The position numbers and the translations under genes were made by a program. The notes under the pieces are model-generated. The model was not told the origin of the DNA. It saw only the letters and a program-made list of their open reading frames with translations, and did not search any database. This document shows, piece after piece, positions 1,631-23,692 of a DNA stretch of 42,873 nt; the first letter of the stretch is position 1, and each line of letters starts with the position of its first letter. The DNA lies in IMG/VR virus record IMGVR_UViG_3300030109_000554, positions 1 to 42,873 of that record; one strand, given 5' to 3'. This stretch comes from a virus.

Positions 1631-1856
1631 CTGTGTTTCCTTTCTTTAATTTAAACCTATTAGACATTTCTTCTATTTGAATTGAATCAAGTAATTCAGA
1701 AAGAGCAGCATTTAAAATAAGAGTATGTTGTTTTTCAGGTGGTAGTTTATTTATTACTATCGCTAACTGCATCATACAATTTATTCTATTGACTAACAGA
1801 TCAGGATTGAAAAAAAACTTTGCTTCTAAGTCTATGCTTTCGTCTTGATCGTCCAT
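1611..1856 (-). CDS. Small acidic hypothetical protein
   Basis: An 81-residue protein not assigned to a family. The N-terminus is acidic (several Asp and Glu in the first twelve residues). A helical middle (residues about 20-60) is rich in Leu, Ile and Asn, and the C-terminus is polar and charged. It sits between a tiny basic gene upstream and RNR downstream, overlapping the RNR start by 20 bases and the basic gene by 56 bases, which suggests translational coupling in one operon. No cysteine cluster, membrane segment or catalytic motif is visible. The first ATG is used. It may be an accessory factor of nucleotide metabolism, but only its position hints at that. Confidence 0.7.
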   Translation of the reverse strand: MDDQDESIDLEAKFFFNPDLLVNRINCMMQLAIVINKLPPEKQHTLILNAALSELLDSIQIEEMSNRFKLKKGNTDDDTRH

Positions 1857-2122: not shown

Positions 2123-2871
2123 TAGGTATACTCCTTAGAAATAGCATTTAAAGAAATAAACTCTGGATCATAACATCCATTTAATACATGGCGTTTAACT
2201 ATAACTCCAGACCACCATAAGTTTTCACTTTGTGTGTTGTTCCAATCAGATTTAAAATCTAAGTAACACCCTGCTACTAACCCCATCATTCTTTCTCCTG
2301 CTGCATTAATAGAAGTGGATAAATCTAAAGTATGGGAGTGTCCTTGAGTTACTGACATATGTTGTTTATTTAGTAAAGCTTTTGCTGGACTTTCCCCACC
2401 TATAGGTCTACCCATAACTCCACTTGTAAAGTAATGAGCGTATGCTATTCTATCTATGATAACTGGGTCAAGAAAGTTACTTACTTTCCACCCAAAATCT
2501 TTGTATCCTAAATCTTCTACTCCTATTGTTCCATCTAGTATAGGCTCAGAAGATATAGCTCTATTAATTCTATCTTCATGGTTGCCTAGACACATATAAA
2601 ACTTAGGCTTTTTTCTTTTAGCTTTTTTAATTGGGGCAAACAATCTTTCTTGTGCATCAAGTACAGAGTCTACGTCTTTTCTATACCGTCTGCCTTCAAA
2701 ACCTTTTGTCCCTTTATCATAGGTACATAAACTAGGCATGTCTGCCATATCTCCTAAGTTAATAACAACATCAGGTTTTACATCTAGGATTAATCTACCT
2801 ATCCATTCAAACCTATCGTTACTATAATCAGGGTGAGCATGTTGATCTGGTATTATTAAATGTGTTTTCAT
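2122..2871 (-). CDS. Calcineurin-like metallophosphoesterase
   Basis: A two-metal phosphoesterase of about 249 residues. The order of metal-binding motifs is clear: PDQHAH near the N-terminus (DxH), NLGDMAD (GDxxD), CLGNHEDR (GNHE/D) and QGHSHT (GHxH). Such phage enzymes hydrolyse phosphodiesters or nucleotides; the actual substrate cannot be told from sequence. I chose ATG 2871, not 2880, because it forms an ATGA overlap with the stop of the upstream endonuclease gene and has GAAGGA at proper spacing. It lies in the DNA metabolism operon between a Holliday junction resolvase and RNR, so a role in host DNA degradation or nucleotide recycling is plausible. Confidence 0.9.
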   Translation of the reverse strand: MKTHLIIPDQHAHPDYSNDRFEWIGRLILDVKPDVVINLGDMADMPSLCTYDKGTKGFEGRRYRKDVDSVLDAQERLFAPIKKAKRKKPKFYMCLGNHEDRINRAISSEPILDGTIGVEDLGYKDFGWKVSNFLDPVIIDRIAYAHYFTSGVMGRPIGGESPAKALLNKQHMSVTQGHSHTLDLSTSINAAGERMMGLVAGCYLDFKSDWNNTQSENLWWSGVIVKRHVLNGCYDPEFISLNAISKEYT

Positions 2872-8902: not shown

Positions 8903-8917
8903 CCTTTATATTCCTTT

Positions 8918-9706
8918 CTATATTTTACATAGTTCACATGACCCTTGATCTGTATCAAACATTTCATACTTTGTACCAGTGTCTTTTTCTAATTGCTGTA
9001 TTATTTTTAAACGCTCTTGTCCAACTTTTGTATTCAACATACGTTGCTGAACCTTTTTACCTGCTAACATACAGGGATAACATCCTACCCTATCATTAGT
9101 TCCTTCATCATATAAAGGATTTCTTTTAACTCCATTATCTTTTAAATAATTAAAGACATCATCTTCAGACCAATCAACAATTGGTAAACGTACCTTAATA
9201 GTAGCTTTAAGTTTTTTATTGTAACGTCTAGGGAATACATCTTCCATATCATAAACATCTAACCCTGTTATATCCCCATACTTTTTAGCTCTCTGTCCAC
9301 TCTCTTGAGTTCTCATTCCAAACCAAAACTCATATGTAGTTTCACCATCGTAAATATTATTCTTATAAAAATCTCTTAAAGCATACTGTTTAAGGTGAGT
9401 AGTACAGAACCTACCTAATCCAAAAGGAAATCTTCCTTGTGCTTTAATTAATTCAGGTAAAGTCTCTGCCTTCTTCCCATCCTTACGTTTACCACCATGA
9501 GTTTTATAAATTTCAATACCTAATCTTTCTTTTAGGTATTCTAAATACGAATAAGTTAATGGGTGCTCCCATCCAGTGTCATTAAAGACAGCAACAATAT
9601 TTTCTTTAGGGTTATTATTAAGAGCAAGAATTAAAGAAGCTGTACTATCCTTGCCCCCACTCATAGGTACTAAAATATTATTAGTAGTTTTTATTTTCAT
9701 ATCCAT
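8918..9706 (-). CDS. PAPS reductase/DndC-like PP-loop protein
   Basis: About 262 residues from ATG 9706. The PP-loop PMSGGKDST (residues 14-22) binds ATP or an adenylylated substrate in the PAPS reductase / ATP-pyrophosphatase superfamily. CTTHLKQYALRDF, GCYPCMLAGK and a C-terminal CELC supply conserved cysteines that could hold a cluster or carry sulphur, as in DndC-type and sulphur-transfer enzymes. True sulphate assimilation is unlikely in a phage. ATG 9706 is preferred over an upstream start because it forms a TAATG overlap with the methyltransferase stop and has AAAGGATT upstream. This coupling suggests that the two proteins act together on DNA or on a nucleotide; that is inference. Confidence 0.85.
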   Translation of the reverse strand: MDMKIKTTNNILVPMSGGKDSTASLILALNNNPKENIVAVFNDTGWEHPLTYSYLEYLKERLGIEIYKTHGGKRKDGKKAETLPELIKAQGRFPFGLGRFCTTHLKQYALRDFYKNNIYDGETTYEFWFGMRTQESGQRAKKYGDITGLDVYDMEDVFPRRYNKKLKATIKVRLPIVDWSEDDVFNYLKDNGVKRNPLYDEGTNDRVGCYPCMLAGKKVQQRMLNTKVGQERLKIIQQLEKDTGTKYEMFDTDQGSCELCKI

Positions 9707-11426: not shown

Positions 11427-11510
11427 TCACCATACTATACAAATTAATAAAAAAATAACACACATAAAAAATCCTGTCAAGATTTCTTTTAGTAACTCAC
11501 TCATTTTCAT
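11427..11510 (-). CDS. 27-residue membrane micropeptide
   Basis: ATG 11510 overlaps the stop of the upstream zinc-ribbon gene (ATGA), and GGGGAGG lies just upstream. The peptide has a short charged start (MKMSELLKE) and then a single hydrophobic segment of about 17 residues rich in Phe, Ile, Leu and Cys, ending in Trp. It would insert in the inner membrane. It is one of three such tiny membrane peptides within 500 bases. Confidence 0.55.
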   Translation of the reverse strand: MKMSELLKEILTGFFMCVIFLLICIVW

Positions 11511-11662
11511 TCGTCCTCCCCTTCACACATTGATTTATCTACCTTCCCAAGACTAGCATAACAATAATCACAGTAGATTTCATAGTACCCATTACGATCG
11601 ACACGCTCCATAATACCAGTGCCATCGCAATAATCGCAGTCAACTTCAATATACTCACACAT
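11507..11662 (-). CDS. 51-residue zinc-ribbon microprotein
   Basis: From ATG 11662 with AAAGGAGTGTGT upstream. Two cysteine pairs, CDYC near residue 9 and CDYC near residue 31, are separated by about 18 residues with a glycine-containing loop (CDGTG), the layout of a small zinc ribbon. The tail is acidic. The stop overlaps the next start. It is probably a nucleic-acid or protein-binding host-takeover factor; no family is named. Confidence 0.68.
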   Translation of the reverse strand: MCEYIEVDCDYCDGTGIMERVDRNGYYEIYCDYCYASLGKVDKSMCEGEDE

Positions 11663-11677
11663 TATACACACTCCTTT

Positions 11678-11755
11678 CTATTTAAATGGTGGATACGATG
11701 CCCATAAAAAAACTACTACTATAACAACATATAATAGTATAATAATTACATCCAT
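11678..11755 (-). CDS. 25-residue membrane micropeptide
   Basis: From ATG 11755 with GAGAGGAGTGTGTT upstream. It is a run of Ile, Val and Leu forming one transmembrane segment, ending ASYPPFK. It sits in a tandemly duplicated unit with the peptide at 11829-11912: both have the same GGAGTGTGT leader and a similar hydrophobic core followed by a Pro/aromatic end, so they may be paralogues. Confidence 0.52.
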   Translation of the reverse strand: MDVIIILLYVVIVVVFLWASYPPFK

Positions 11756-11825
11756 AACACACTCCTCTCATTACTCATACCTTTTTCTGAATAGCTCAAT
11801 AGTATCAACTACTTAACCTTCCGAA
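11753..11825. repeat. Duplicated leader, copy 1
   Basis: Resembles 11910-11984 at an offset of about 159 bases. An identical 20-mer (ctttttctgaatagctcaat) lies at 11781-11800, and a shared tcaactactta follows. The copy holds the ribosome site and upstream leader of the 25-residue membrane peptide. Confidence 0.8.
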
Positions 11826-11828
11826 AAA

Positions 11829-11912
11829 TTACCACCAACGCCAAGGCATAGTGATAACGATTACAACCAACAACCATACAATTATAGCTGTTGTTAATAA
11901 TATTTCTAACAT
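11829..11912 (-). CDS. 27-residue membrane micropeptide
   Basis: From ATG 11912 with GAAGGAGTGTGTGTT upstream. A single hydrophobic segment (about residues 2-22, Ile/Val/Leu) is followed by MPWRWW. It is probably an inner-membrane peptide and a likely paralogue of the peptide at 11678-11755, with which it shares a duplicated leader. Confidence 0.52.
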   Translation of the reverse strand: MLEILLTTAIIVWLLVVIVITMPWRWW

Positions 11913-11984
11913 AACACACACTCCTTCCATTACTGGGATCTTTTTCTGAATAGCTCAATCAATTCAACTACTTAGCTTCCCAAG
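11910..11984. repeat. Duplicated leader, copy 2
   Basis: Second copy of the leader at 11753-11825, with the same 20-mer at 11940-11959. It runs into the last codons of the 55-residue gene (stop at 11968-11970). Copy 1 keeps a decayed trace of the same codons, so the duplication included the end of that gene. Confidence 0.8.
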
Positions 11985-12135
11985 ATTGCATATCATGGGC
12001 AACTAATTCACAAATAGTATCCAACATCTCTTGCCCTGCTGGTGTTTCAGCTAACTCCATAGGACTTCTACCTGTTTTGTTATGCTTTTCCATAAGGAAA
12101 TCGTGCATCCGCAAACGCTCATCCAGTGTAGGCAT
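11968..12135 (-). CDS. Small hypothetical protein
   Basis: A 55-residue protein from ATG 12135 with GGAAGGAG upstream. It is mostly helical and mildly acidic (opening MPTLDERLRMHDFL), with a middle TGRSPMELAETPAGQEML. No family is recognised. Its last codons form part of the duplicated block that also lies ahead of the membrane micropeptides. Confidence 0.65.
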   Translation of the reverse strand: MPTLDERLRMHDFLMEKHNKTGRSPMELAETPAGQEMLDTICELVAHDMQSWEAK

Positions 12136-12193
12136 AGTTTACTCCTTCCATTTAGTTTACAGTTTAAACAAACGTGTCACACACTCATTCAAA

Positions 12194-12700
12194 TTAATTA
12201 ATTGTTACATGGGGTGCAGTACTTTTGAAGTAATTCTTCATCTTTAATACTGCTTCCATAGCGTGTTCATCACCCTTTGATTTTGTTTCATCACTATGAA
12301 ACTTTATTACTTTTGCAATCTTTTTGAAAAAATCATCTGCATCGAAATGAGTTATTGATTGATCTTTTGCTACCTTGTCCCAGAAACAATTCTTGATTGC
12401 TTCCGCTACGTTAGCAACAACACCATCATCACGCTTTACTCTAATAAGTTTTTTATCTTGCAGAGAGTACATTTGATCTGTGTACAATTCAACCCATGAA
12501 GCAAACGCTTTTTGTCCTACTTCTGCTTTACCTTTACCTAAAGCATTTAAAACATCATTCAAACAACCATGATCCCCATGATCGTTGTAATGTTGGATAG
12601 CAAAACATGACGCTATCCAAATGTTATTCTTACCAGATGTAATTTGTTTTACACCTGTTGCTAATACTTTTTGGAATTCACTTACATTTTTTATTTTCAC
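12194..12700 (-). CDS. Hypothetical protein of the early region
   Basis: A 168-residue protein starting at GTG 12700 with AAGGAG upstream. It is mixed and soluble. Residues 25-60 contain an aromatic, His-rich segment (CFAIQHYNDHGDHGC) followed by NALGKGKAEVGQKAFASWV. The C-terminal half is charged and helical. I do not recognise a named family, although proteins of this kind recur in marine T7-like phages near the start of the early arm. It follows a 300-base gene-free stretch and probably heads the microprotein operon. Confidence 0.8.
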   Translation of the reverse strand: MKIKNVSEFQKVLATGVKQITSGKNNIWIASCFAIQHYNDHGDHGCLNDVLNALGKGKAEVGQKAFASWVELYTDQMYSLQDKKLIRVKRDDGVVANVAEAIKNCFWDKVAKDQSITHFDADDFFKKIAKVIKFHSDETKSKGDEHAMEAVLKMKNYFKSTAPHVTIN

Positions 12701-13012
12701 GTTACATACTCCTTATTTTTAGAGAGTGTGCAACACGCTTGTTAAAACTGTAATATGGGAATATATAAACATAATGCTAGAATTCACGTTCAATATTTGT
12801 CACACCTCACCCATCGTAAAATACAGCAGGGTAATTCCTACAAACTAAACGCTTCATCATTCATTAGCGAGAGCAAAGAAAACGCACTTGTTGCATTCCA
12901 AGCACACTGGTTGCGTCCCAAACACGTTACAGGTTGCTAATCTGCTCTGCTCTGTCTCTCATTGCTTGGTTTAAAACACACCAGCATTATGTTATTTACT
13001 TCTAATTGATAG
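12701..13012. other. Gene-free stretch upstream of the 168-residue gene
   Basis: I see no convincing gene. It is richer in GC than the control region beyond it. It holds a repeat at a 20-base offset (12890-12905 and 12910-12925, GTTGCRTYCCAARCAC, 13 of 16 identical) and a weak minus-strand promoter candidate (TTGAAC at 12793-12788, 18-base spacer, TTTATA). It may contain a leader or a small RNA. Confidence 0.4.
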
Positions 13013-22106: not shown

Positions 22107-22607
22107 ATGACTGTAAACCATAAAGATTTAACAGGGGCAGCCTTACATGAATCAAAAGGTGTAGCTACAGCTTCTGCAAATACTGTGTATGTTGCTAATG
22201 GTTCTGGATCTGGTACGTGGGAAAAAGTTGATAAAGATGCAGTCAATACTTCCAGTATTAAAGATCTTAATAAAATTTATTTAACTTATACAATACCTGA
22301 TATTTCAACAGCAGGTTCTCATTTTGTTGTTACTCCAATTGCAGGAGATATAGCTAAAATTCATTCAACAATTAACAACGCTATTACATCTGCTAACTGT
22401 GGGTTAACTTTTGAAATTGCTGGAACTGCTGTAACTAACGGAGCTATAACAATAGCTCATTCTGGATCTGCTGCTGGTACAGTAGATACTGCTACTCCAA
22501 GTGGTCAAAAAACTTTAACAGCAGGACAAGCAATAGAAATTATTACGGATGGAGCAAGCTCTACATCTTGTAGAGGTACAATAACTTTTGAATTGGATGT
22601 GAGCTAA
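22107..22607 (+). CDS. Beta-rich structural protein (head or tail fibre)
   Basis: A 166-residue, Thr/Ser/Ala/Gly-rich protein with many predicted strands. The first 35 residues (ALHESKGVATASANTVYVANG) resemble the N-terminal adaptor seen in phage fibres, and the rest looks like a single beta-sandwich. It starts with GGAAGAG upstream just beyond the hairpin and is coupled to the next gene by TAATG. No enzyme motif is present. It is probably a head fibre or decoration protein. Confidence 0.68.
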   Translation: MTVNHKDLTGAALHESKGVATASANTVYVANGSGSGTWEKVDKDAVNTSSIKDLNKIYLTYTIPDISTAGSHFVVTPIAGDIAKIHSTINNAITSANCGLTFEIAGTAVTNGAITIAHSGSAAGTVDTATPSGQKTLTAGQAIEIITDGASSTSCRGTITFELDVS

Positions 22608-23692
22608 TGCCAAAATTAACAACTACTGATCTTACCTCATTATCTTCTAACGAAACTTCTTCTGTTAATACTCTTAATGCAAACTTTGCATTAGTAGAAA
22701 CTGCAATGGAAAATACTCTTAGCAGGGATGGTACTGCTACAAATACCATGACTGCTAGTTTAGATATGAATAGTAACAAAATACTTAATGTTGCTGCTGG
22801 AACAGCTGCCGCAGATGGAGTAAATCTTTCACAGTTAACATCTGCTACTGGACAAGTTCCAGGTTTAAGTATGACTATGGAAACAACTACAACAGACTCA
22901 GATCAAGGTAATGGAAAAGTTTGGTTTAATGCAGCTGTTGCTTCAGCTACAATTTTATACATGGATGATGTAGATACAAACTCTGCTAACATAGCTACCT
23001 TTGTACAAACATGGGATAACTCTACTACTACTGCAAGCAGGGGTTATATATGGGTAATACAAAAAGCATCAGCAGTAAACTATGCTGTATTTGAAATAGA
23101 TGGTGCAGTTACAGATGCTAGTGGGTATACTAAAATACCTGTAAATTATATGATTGGAGCAGGTACTTTAGCTGATGGAGATCCAGTAACAGTTAATTTT
23201 ATTAGAACAGGTGACAAAGGGGGTACAGGAGATACAGGGTCTACTGGTGCTACTGGTTCTGGTGAGGGAATTGAATTAGCTTTTGAATCAACAACTACAG
23301 ATACCGACCAAGGTGCAGGTAAAGTTTTTTTAAATCATGGAACACCTTCTTCAGCTACAGTTGTTTATATAGATGATGTTGATAGTAATGCTGCTAATAT
23401 AAATAGTTATGTAGATTCTTTTGATGATTCTACAAGTACTGTTAAAGGAAGAATTGTAATTAAAAAACAATTAGCCCCAGAAAATTATCATATGTTTAAT
23501 GTTACTGGTTCAGTTACTTCTGCATCTACATATTCTAAAGTAGCTGTTACTCATGTTTTAAGTGTAGGAACTATTTCAGATGGTGATGCAGTACATTTAT
23601 CTTTTTCTAGAACAGGGGATAAAGGCAATACTGGTAATGATGGTGACGTAACTGAAGCAACAGCGGTAGCTTTAGCAATAGCTTTAGGTTAA
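22607..23692 (+). CDS. Tail fibre-like protein with duplicated domain and collagen-like linkers
   Basis: A 361-residue protein. Residues 10-80 resemble phage fibre anchors (TLNANFALVETAMENTLSR, DMNSNKILNVA). Two homologous domains follow, at about 87-203 and 221-340. Both begin with TTTDxDQGxGKV, contain a DDVDxNxAN segment and end RTGDKG. Each is followed by Gly-x-y repeats (GGTGDTGSTGATGSGEG and GNTGNDGDV), which form collagen-like triple helices. It is probably a trimeric host-recognition fibre. The internal duplication suggests modular growth of the fibre. TAATG coupling lies upstream. Confidence 0.78.
   Translation: MPKLTTTDLTSLSSNETSSVNTLNANFALVETAMENTLSRDGTATNTMTASLDMNSNKILNVAAGTAAADGVNLSQLTSATGQVPGLSMTMETTTTDSDQGNGKVWFNAAVASATILYMDDVDTNSANIATFVQTWDNSTTTASRGYIWVIQKASAVNYAVFEIDGAVTDASGYTKIPVNYMIGAGTLADGDPVTVNFIRTGDKGGTGDTGSTGATGSGEGIELAFESTTTDTDQGAGKVFLNHGTPSSATVVYIDDVDSNAANINSYVDSFDDSTSTVKGRIVIKKQLAPENYHMFNVTGSVTSASTYSKVAVTHVLSVGTISDGDAVHLSFSRTGDKGNTGNDGDVTEATAVALAIALG

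Follow-up and report, generated by a model that had tools for sequence, protein, structure and literature searches.

A duplicated Shine-Dalgarno leader in the early operon of an uncultured marine phage, and a 12-nt repeat at the boundaries of a single-gene difference

Introduction

Two consecutive micropeptide genes of an uncultured marine phage are preceded by related leader sequences, which raises the question of what a repeat between such small genes is and how it came to stand there. The phage is represented by the IMG/VR virus record IMGVR_UViG_3300030109_000554, whose 42,873 bases were analysed as one stretch, referred to here as the window. The original prediction left the choice between recent gene birth by duplication and a conserved RNA element controlling both genes. 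The literature searched for the present analysis held nothing on this phage or its leader.

Results

The phage and its early operon

Megablast of window 15.4-40.2 kb found no close named relative, and a distant search with window 9-14 kb returned 23 records (among the 20 listed, the 18 annotated ones all matched in DNA methyltransferase genes). The primase/helicase matched marine T7-like phages with a best identity of 43.9% among the 20 best of 2836 matches, and homologues of g105, a small early protein of 93-105 aa, were mostly from pelagiphages (15 of 18 records). Given these two sets of matches, the phage is probably a T7-like marine podovirus, and its host can reasonably be guessed to be Pelagibacter-like. 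No tRNA or tmRNA gene was found in L001 or in the sister contig L005 described below.

The early genes lie on the minus strand in the order 168-aa gene, g55, M1, M2, CxxC gene, M4, 72-aa gene, g105. The 168-aa gene (12194..12700, minus strand; phrog_1448, function unknown) is the conserved upstream flank of the locus; its protein was found in one IMG/VR contig, and neither in genome contigs nor in named phages. It is flanked by a 41-nt inverted repeat of 80% complementarity (window 12157-12197 and 12713-12753), a 30-nt part of which is found in the sister contig on the other side of the 168-aa gene and in inverse orientation.

A leader repeated before two micropeptide genes

A repeat search located the leader at 11916-11981 (copy A, minus strand) and 11757-11822 (copy B, minus strand), as two stretches of 66 nt that are 80% identical and spaced by 159 nt; gapped BLAST aligned them over 69 columns at 81% identity. 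The 19-mer TTTTTCTGAATAGCTCAAT occurs twice, and still only at the same two places when 3 mismatches are allowed, against 0.05 occurrences expected in shuffles. The longest identical run between the copies is 20 nt, a length which by itself is not unusual given 13 mismatches in 66 positions (P = 0.07). The mismatches of the ungapped alignment are clustered, with 9 of 12 neighbour distances at 2 nt or less (P = 0.001), and form four clusters, the first three mismatches being partly due to a 1-nt indel.

Both copies reach the start codon of a minus-strand ORF, copy A that of M1 (11912-11829), a hydrophobic micropeptide of 27 aa, and copy B that of M2 (11755-11678), a hydrophobic micropeptide of 25 aa, and the similarity between the copies stops at these start codons. 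Each copy ends in the Shine-Dalgarno stretch AGGAGTGTG, with 8 nt from AGGAG to ATG for M1 and 6 nt for M2. At its other end, copy A contains the last codons of g55 (11968..12135, minus strand), a 55-aa ORF of unknown function, and copy B begins 3-6 nt past the stop codon of M1, the exact distance varying between the gapped and the ungapped alignment. The 3′ end of g55 reads GGGAAGCTAAGTAG in copy A and has the changed form CGGAAGGTTAAGTAG in copy B. The duplication of the leader with its identical 20-mer, its position before two micropeptide genes, and the decayed version of the end of the 55-residue gene had all been proposed originally, and all three stand. A scan limited to sigma-70-like promoters and terminator-like structures found neither inside the leader copies.

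The AGGAGTGTG stretch occurs three times in the window (11667-11675, 11758-11766 and 11917-11925; 0.18 expected), each time before one of consecutive small genes. The third copy (minus strand) precedes the ATG of the CxxC gene (11507..11671, minus strand), which is conserved in the sister contig and measures 54 aa as listed from GTG or 51 aa from the ATG after AGGAGTGTG; its product is Lar-like, with a score under the Pfam cut-off. Next lies M4 (11427..11510, minus strand), a third hydrophobic micropeptide of 27 aa, at a 97-nt gap of the alignment with the sister contig. The AGGAG-ATG spacing in the AGGAGTGTG genes and their sister counterparts is 6, 8 or 10 nt, differing partly by GT steps. 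M1 and M2 are probable membrane peptides, and the small ORFs would be expressed, as suggested by their Shine-Dalgarno sequences and, for M1, by conservation in the sister contig.

A sister phage lacks g55 and both leader copies

One sister contig in IMG/VR covered the whole locus (42,221 bases; represented among the fetched loci as L003, L005 and L026), and about 27 kb of it were compared with the window. Aligned blocks extended over most of these 27 kb, mostly at 86-98% identity, with about 91% in the longest. A second, near-identical contig (L002), the only one found in IMG/VR with the exact 19-mer, shared 227 nt of this region with the window at 100% identity; it includes copy B only and ends inside M1, and is therefore uninformative on copy A.

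In the sister contig, M1 (25 of 27 residues identical) directly follows the 168-aa gene, g55 is missing, and a profile of copies A and B found nothing at E <= 5. The absence of both leader copies together with a neighbouring gene makes the repeat look like seam DNA. The junction itself could be read from the alignments: the two alignments between the window and L005 overlap by the 12 nt AATGGAAGGAGT on the L005 side, and 209 nt separate them in the window. There, g55 and leader copy A form a unit of 221 nt bracketed by two exact copies of AATGGAAGGAGT, of which the upstream one (12141..12152, minus strand) is the Shine-Dalgarno sequence of g55 and the downstream one (11920..11931, minus strand) that of M1. 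The leader of M1 in the sister is a chimera: its left part corresponds to the g55 leader, its right part to the M1 leader, and it contains one additional GT. An identity of 12 nt was found in 0 of 300 random pairs of gene starts of the window and in about 1 of 300 random positions, and the alignment score at the repeat was reached by 1 of 300 random gene-start pairs. The chimeric junction at AATGGAAGGAGT thus indicates that g55 and leader copy A are gained or lost together. The reading that needs a single step is that recombination between the 12-mers removed g55 from the sister, and gain of g55 in the window lineage is an admissible alternative direction.

A second boundary lies just past M1. 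Conservation with the sister ends at 11824, and leader copy B starts within about 2 nt of that position. Beyond it, the sister contains an unrelated stretch and then another hydrophobic peptide in place of M2, whose Shine-Dalgarno sequence has 16 nt in common with that of M2. The sister also carries an extra 54-aa ORF before g105. Elsewhere, window 8917-9687, which includes most of a gene with a PAPS-reductase domain (PF01507), had no BLAST match in the sister contig, where 232 unrelated nt lie in its place between well conserved flanks.

Searches for further relatives

The leader had few relatives in the collections searched. The A/B profile, run over the fetched loci, recovered the window itself and the near-identical contig only, the next locus being L088 at E 4.3, and the search of named phages produced a single match, with an E value of 0.8. 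In genome contigs, three records (an archaeal MAG, a Providencia plasmid and a Clostridium) fitted a gapped pattern that fixes 19 bases; these were taken as chance because only 8-18 of 42 bases outside the pattern matched, against 33 of 42 between copies A and B. For g55, no relative was found by a pattern-seeded IMG/VR search, tblastn of named phages, PHROGs or Pfam, and for M1 the only relatives were in the two contigs already known. Two contig fragments with close terminases (G003, 25,005 bases; G004, 23,034 bases) gave no match.

Most small-gene indels surveyed begin at Shine-Dalgarno-preceded starts

Differences of the same kind were surveyed among loci of at least 4000 bases, minus 16 locus ids that repeated the window or the same contigs. 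An event was recorded where two alignments overlapped by 5-40 nt in one contig and lay 60-600 nt apart in the other. Twenty rows were obtained, of which 7 were redundant, one was dropped and 12 were kept. In 11 of the 12 non-redundant small-gene indels, the extra segment began within 20 nt of a start codon preceded by a Shine-Dalgarno sequence, with an ORF covering at least 40% of the segment, while 1.3 random segments of the same lengths would be expected at such starts. The single miss was L005 4094-4322, the other indel of the window/L005 pair, whose start is not at a Shine-Dalgarno-preceded gene. The dropped row (L033/window, 34-nt overlap) falls inside a 361-aa ORF at 22607-23692; if it is included as a miss, the count becomes 11 of 13. 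Similarity at the boundaries exceeded that of random positions in 5 of 12 events at P < 0.02 and in 6 of 12 at P < 0.05, and that of random gene starts in 4 of 12 at P <= 0.03; microhomology is partly built into these figures, since the events were picked for an overlap of at least 5 nt.

Other explanations for the repeated leader

The second of the two original accounts, an RNA element, would make the 20-nt core and an upstream arm a hairpin (AAGUAGUU / GAGCUAUU, with a variable loop) that stands before both micropeptide Shine-Dalgarno sequences and controls translation or mRNA processing. The arms are identical in both copies and the centre of the loop differs at 4 nt, an outer pair has changed from C-G to U-G (a one-sided change), and the clustering of the A/B mismatches fits such a structure. 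The consensus hairpin was also better than 96.3% of 1000 column shuffles (P = 0.037). However, single leader copies folded no better than shuffles (z 0.14, -1.33, -0.82 and -0.51), the sister contig has M1 without the hairpin leader, and Rfam had no hit at gathering scores in either the window or L005, nor any at E <= 1 in 11600-12200. The comparison covers two copies, as the searches found no diverged third sequence. Counted in favour of the idea is a different hairpin in L111, a contig with a g105 homologue: it is present in three intergenic copies whose stems, by eye, show paired changes, and two of the copies stand immediately in front of a Shine-Dalgarno sequence. Taken together, we regard an RNA element at the leader as unlikely.

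The L111 hairpin, CAGGG(N)TAGAAATA(N)CCC with a GAAA loop, lies at 1455-1474, 1689-1710 and 2143-2162 (plus strand), and was found in none of 125 other loci. An intergenic part of this phage small-gene operon contains a sequence resembling a type III hammerhead ribozyme (1710-1764, plus strand; 32.9 bits, E 8.4e-5), which falls short of the gathering score of 48.5. Its core, as seen by eye, comprises CTGAAGAG, CGAAAC, a GTC at the cleavage site and three stems, and the region together with the neighbouring hairpin has a fold z of -5.2. A joint scan of seven loci at E <= 0.1 did not list it, possibly owing to stricter filters.

A combined account would let the Shine-Dalgarno leaders of these marine phages act as distributed recombination seams, or homology arms, that deal out micropeptide genes one by one, with the 20-nt core as a start-associated RNA element keeping newcomers under the same translational control; we consider this conjunction quite improbable.

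Each leader might instead be what is left of the 3′ end of a gene that was once duplicated and has since been lost, as copies A and B share, in the same frame, a TAA-bounded stretch of 13 codons (VVELIELFRKRSQ / VVDTIELFRKRYE), in which 5 codons have changed, one of them synonymously and two conservatively (E/D, Q/E). Yet a degenerate pattern for this coding C-terminus retrieved the near-identical contig only from IMG/VR, a looser motif occurred in the fetched loci at three other places (L030, L060 and L081) in otherwise different sequences, and copy B contains no ATG, GTG or TTG within the 13 codons. We consider such a vanished gene improbable.

Gene birth, in which a 159-nt unit of leader and M1 was duplicated in tandem and the second peptide gene then diverged to M2, agrees with the spacing and order of the parts. 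M1 and M2 are also both short, hydrophobic and weakly similar (P = 0.018 for protein and 0.027 for DNA, in residue and base shuffles), but a common hydrophobic bias may account for this weak resemblance. The similarity of the repeat itself stops at the ATG, while the leader keeps 80%. The sister, moreover, has M1 without the leader, and the 20% divergence between copies A and B exceeds that between the two phages (about 9% in the longest blocks). By that yardstick, the duplication would not be recent, although 66 nt make a poor clock. The recent gene birth proposed originally is therefore not supported, since the sister has M1 but not the leader and the two copies have diverged more than the phages, and we give gene birth by this route the lowest credence of the accounts set out here. 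Chance or AT-richness as the source of the repeat was rejected by the repeat identity and the 19-mer shuffles, the two blocks being clearly related to each other.

Discussion

The explanation that accounts best for these observations, and to which we give slightly better than even credence, is that the leader is seam DNA between one-gene cassettes of the early minus-strand operon. Each small gene would carry its own Shine-Dalgarno leader, and since these leaders resemble one another, they could serve as short homologies for the insertion, deletion or swap of single small genes. Recombination or replication slippage across such repeats would have made the differences between the window and the sister, and the A/B repeat would make M1 removable likewise. 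The present job of the leader may be to provide a strong Shine-Dalgarno sequence for each micropeptide gene.

Several observations count in favour of seams: the three AGGAGTGTG stretches, the exact 12-mers bracketing g55 and copy A, the 11 of 12 indels at Shine-Dalgarno starts, and a phage endonuclease I encoded in the window (PF05367, E = 2e-55), an enzyme that resolves junctions in T7. We also counted for seams a hydrophobic micropeptide gene (MITFTITYGAIMLL...) that lies before the g105 homologue in L111 (2778-2876) and directly after it in L113 (4198-4302). Against them, seams at gene boundaries would be expected as well if breaks were random and only whole-gene insertions survived, and the model explains the Shine-Dalgarno part of the leader but not directly the 20-nt upstream core and the clustered mismatches. 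It also counts against seams that boundary similarity stood out from random positions in only 5 of 12 indels at P < 0.02, that the other window/L005 indel starts elsewhere than at a Shine-Dalgarno-preceded gene, and that a single sister contig spans the complete locus. Because the surveyed events were chosen by overlap and whole-gene insertions may be those that survive, the seam is an observed feature of the locus, to which the repeats are only presumed to have contributed causally.

Phage module boundaries are known to match gene boundaries, and short conserved boundary sequences are one of two models of mosaicism, while the second model combines random illegitimate recombination with later selection (PMC3233612). 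Like such boundary sequences, the two AATGGAAGGAGT copies mark exactly where g55 and leader copy A are present or absent, and the junction in L005 is chimeric. What differs is that the boundary sequence here is the Shine-Dalgarno leader of single, very small genes, and targeting by it looks the same as later selection.

The Start-Associated Sequences of Cluster K mycobacteriophages (SAS and ESAS), described as having no known function, are another parallel (PMC3203893). SAS is a 13-bp sequence, scanned as GGGATAGGAGCCC, with 11-19 copies per genome and conservation across phages, and about half of the SAS copies carry an upstream extension, ESAS, made of two 17-bp inverted repeats (PMC3203893). 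The likeness is that a short repeat of Shine-Dalgarno type lies directly upstream of phage start codons, as all three AGGAGTGTG copies do, and that an upstream extension is present on part of the copies. In contrast to SAS, AGGAGTGTG is a different sequence with three clustered copies, against 11-19 per genome for SAS, and the extended leader has two copies, was not found in L005 in spite of M1 where SAS is conserved before the same genes, and forms a weak short hairpin in place of the 17-bp inverted repeats of ESAS.

T4-type phages reportedly have PeSL mobile regulatory cassettes, the subject of papers by Arbiol (2010) and Comeau (2014), in which repeated intergenic elements are said to shuffle small genes. 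PeSLs are said to be composite promoter-terminator motifs, made of an early promoter and a terminator stem-loop. Measured against this definition, the leader copies differ, as the scan showed neither a sigma-70-like promoter nor a terminator-like match within them.

In its anatomy, the locus fits mosaicism by boundary sequences, with targeting unproved, and it is an instance of known phage mosaicism, ordinary in kind. It shows clearly how a phage early operon gains or loses one gene of the smallest class (about 25-55 codons), with the junction repeat still visible. It bears on whether boundary sequences target mosaicism to gene boundaries or selection alone acts afterwards, and it suggests that Shine-Dalgarno repeats be scored at one-gene indels in many closely related phages.
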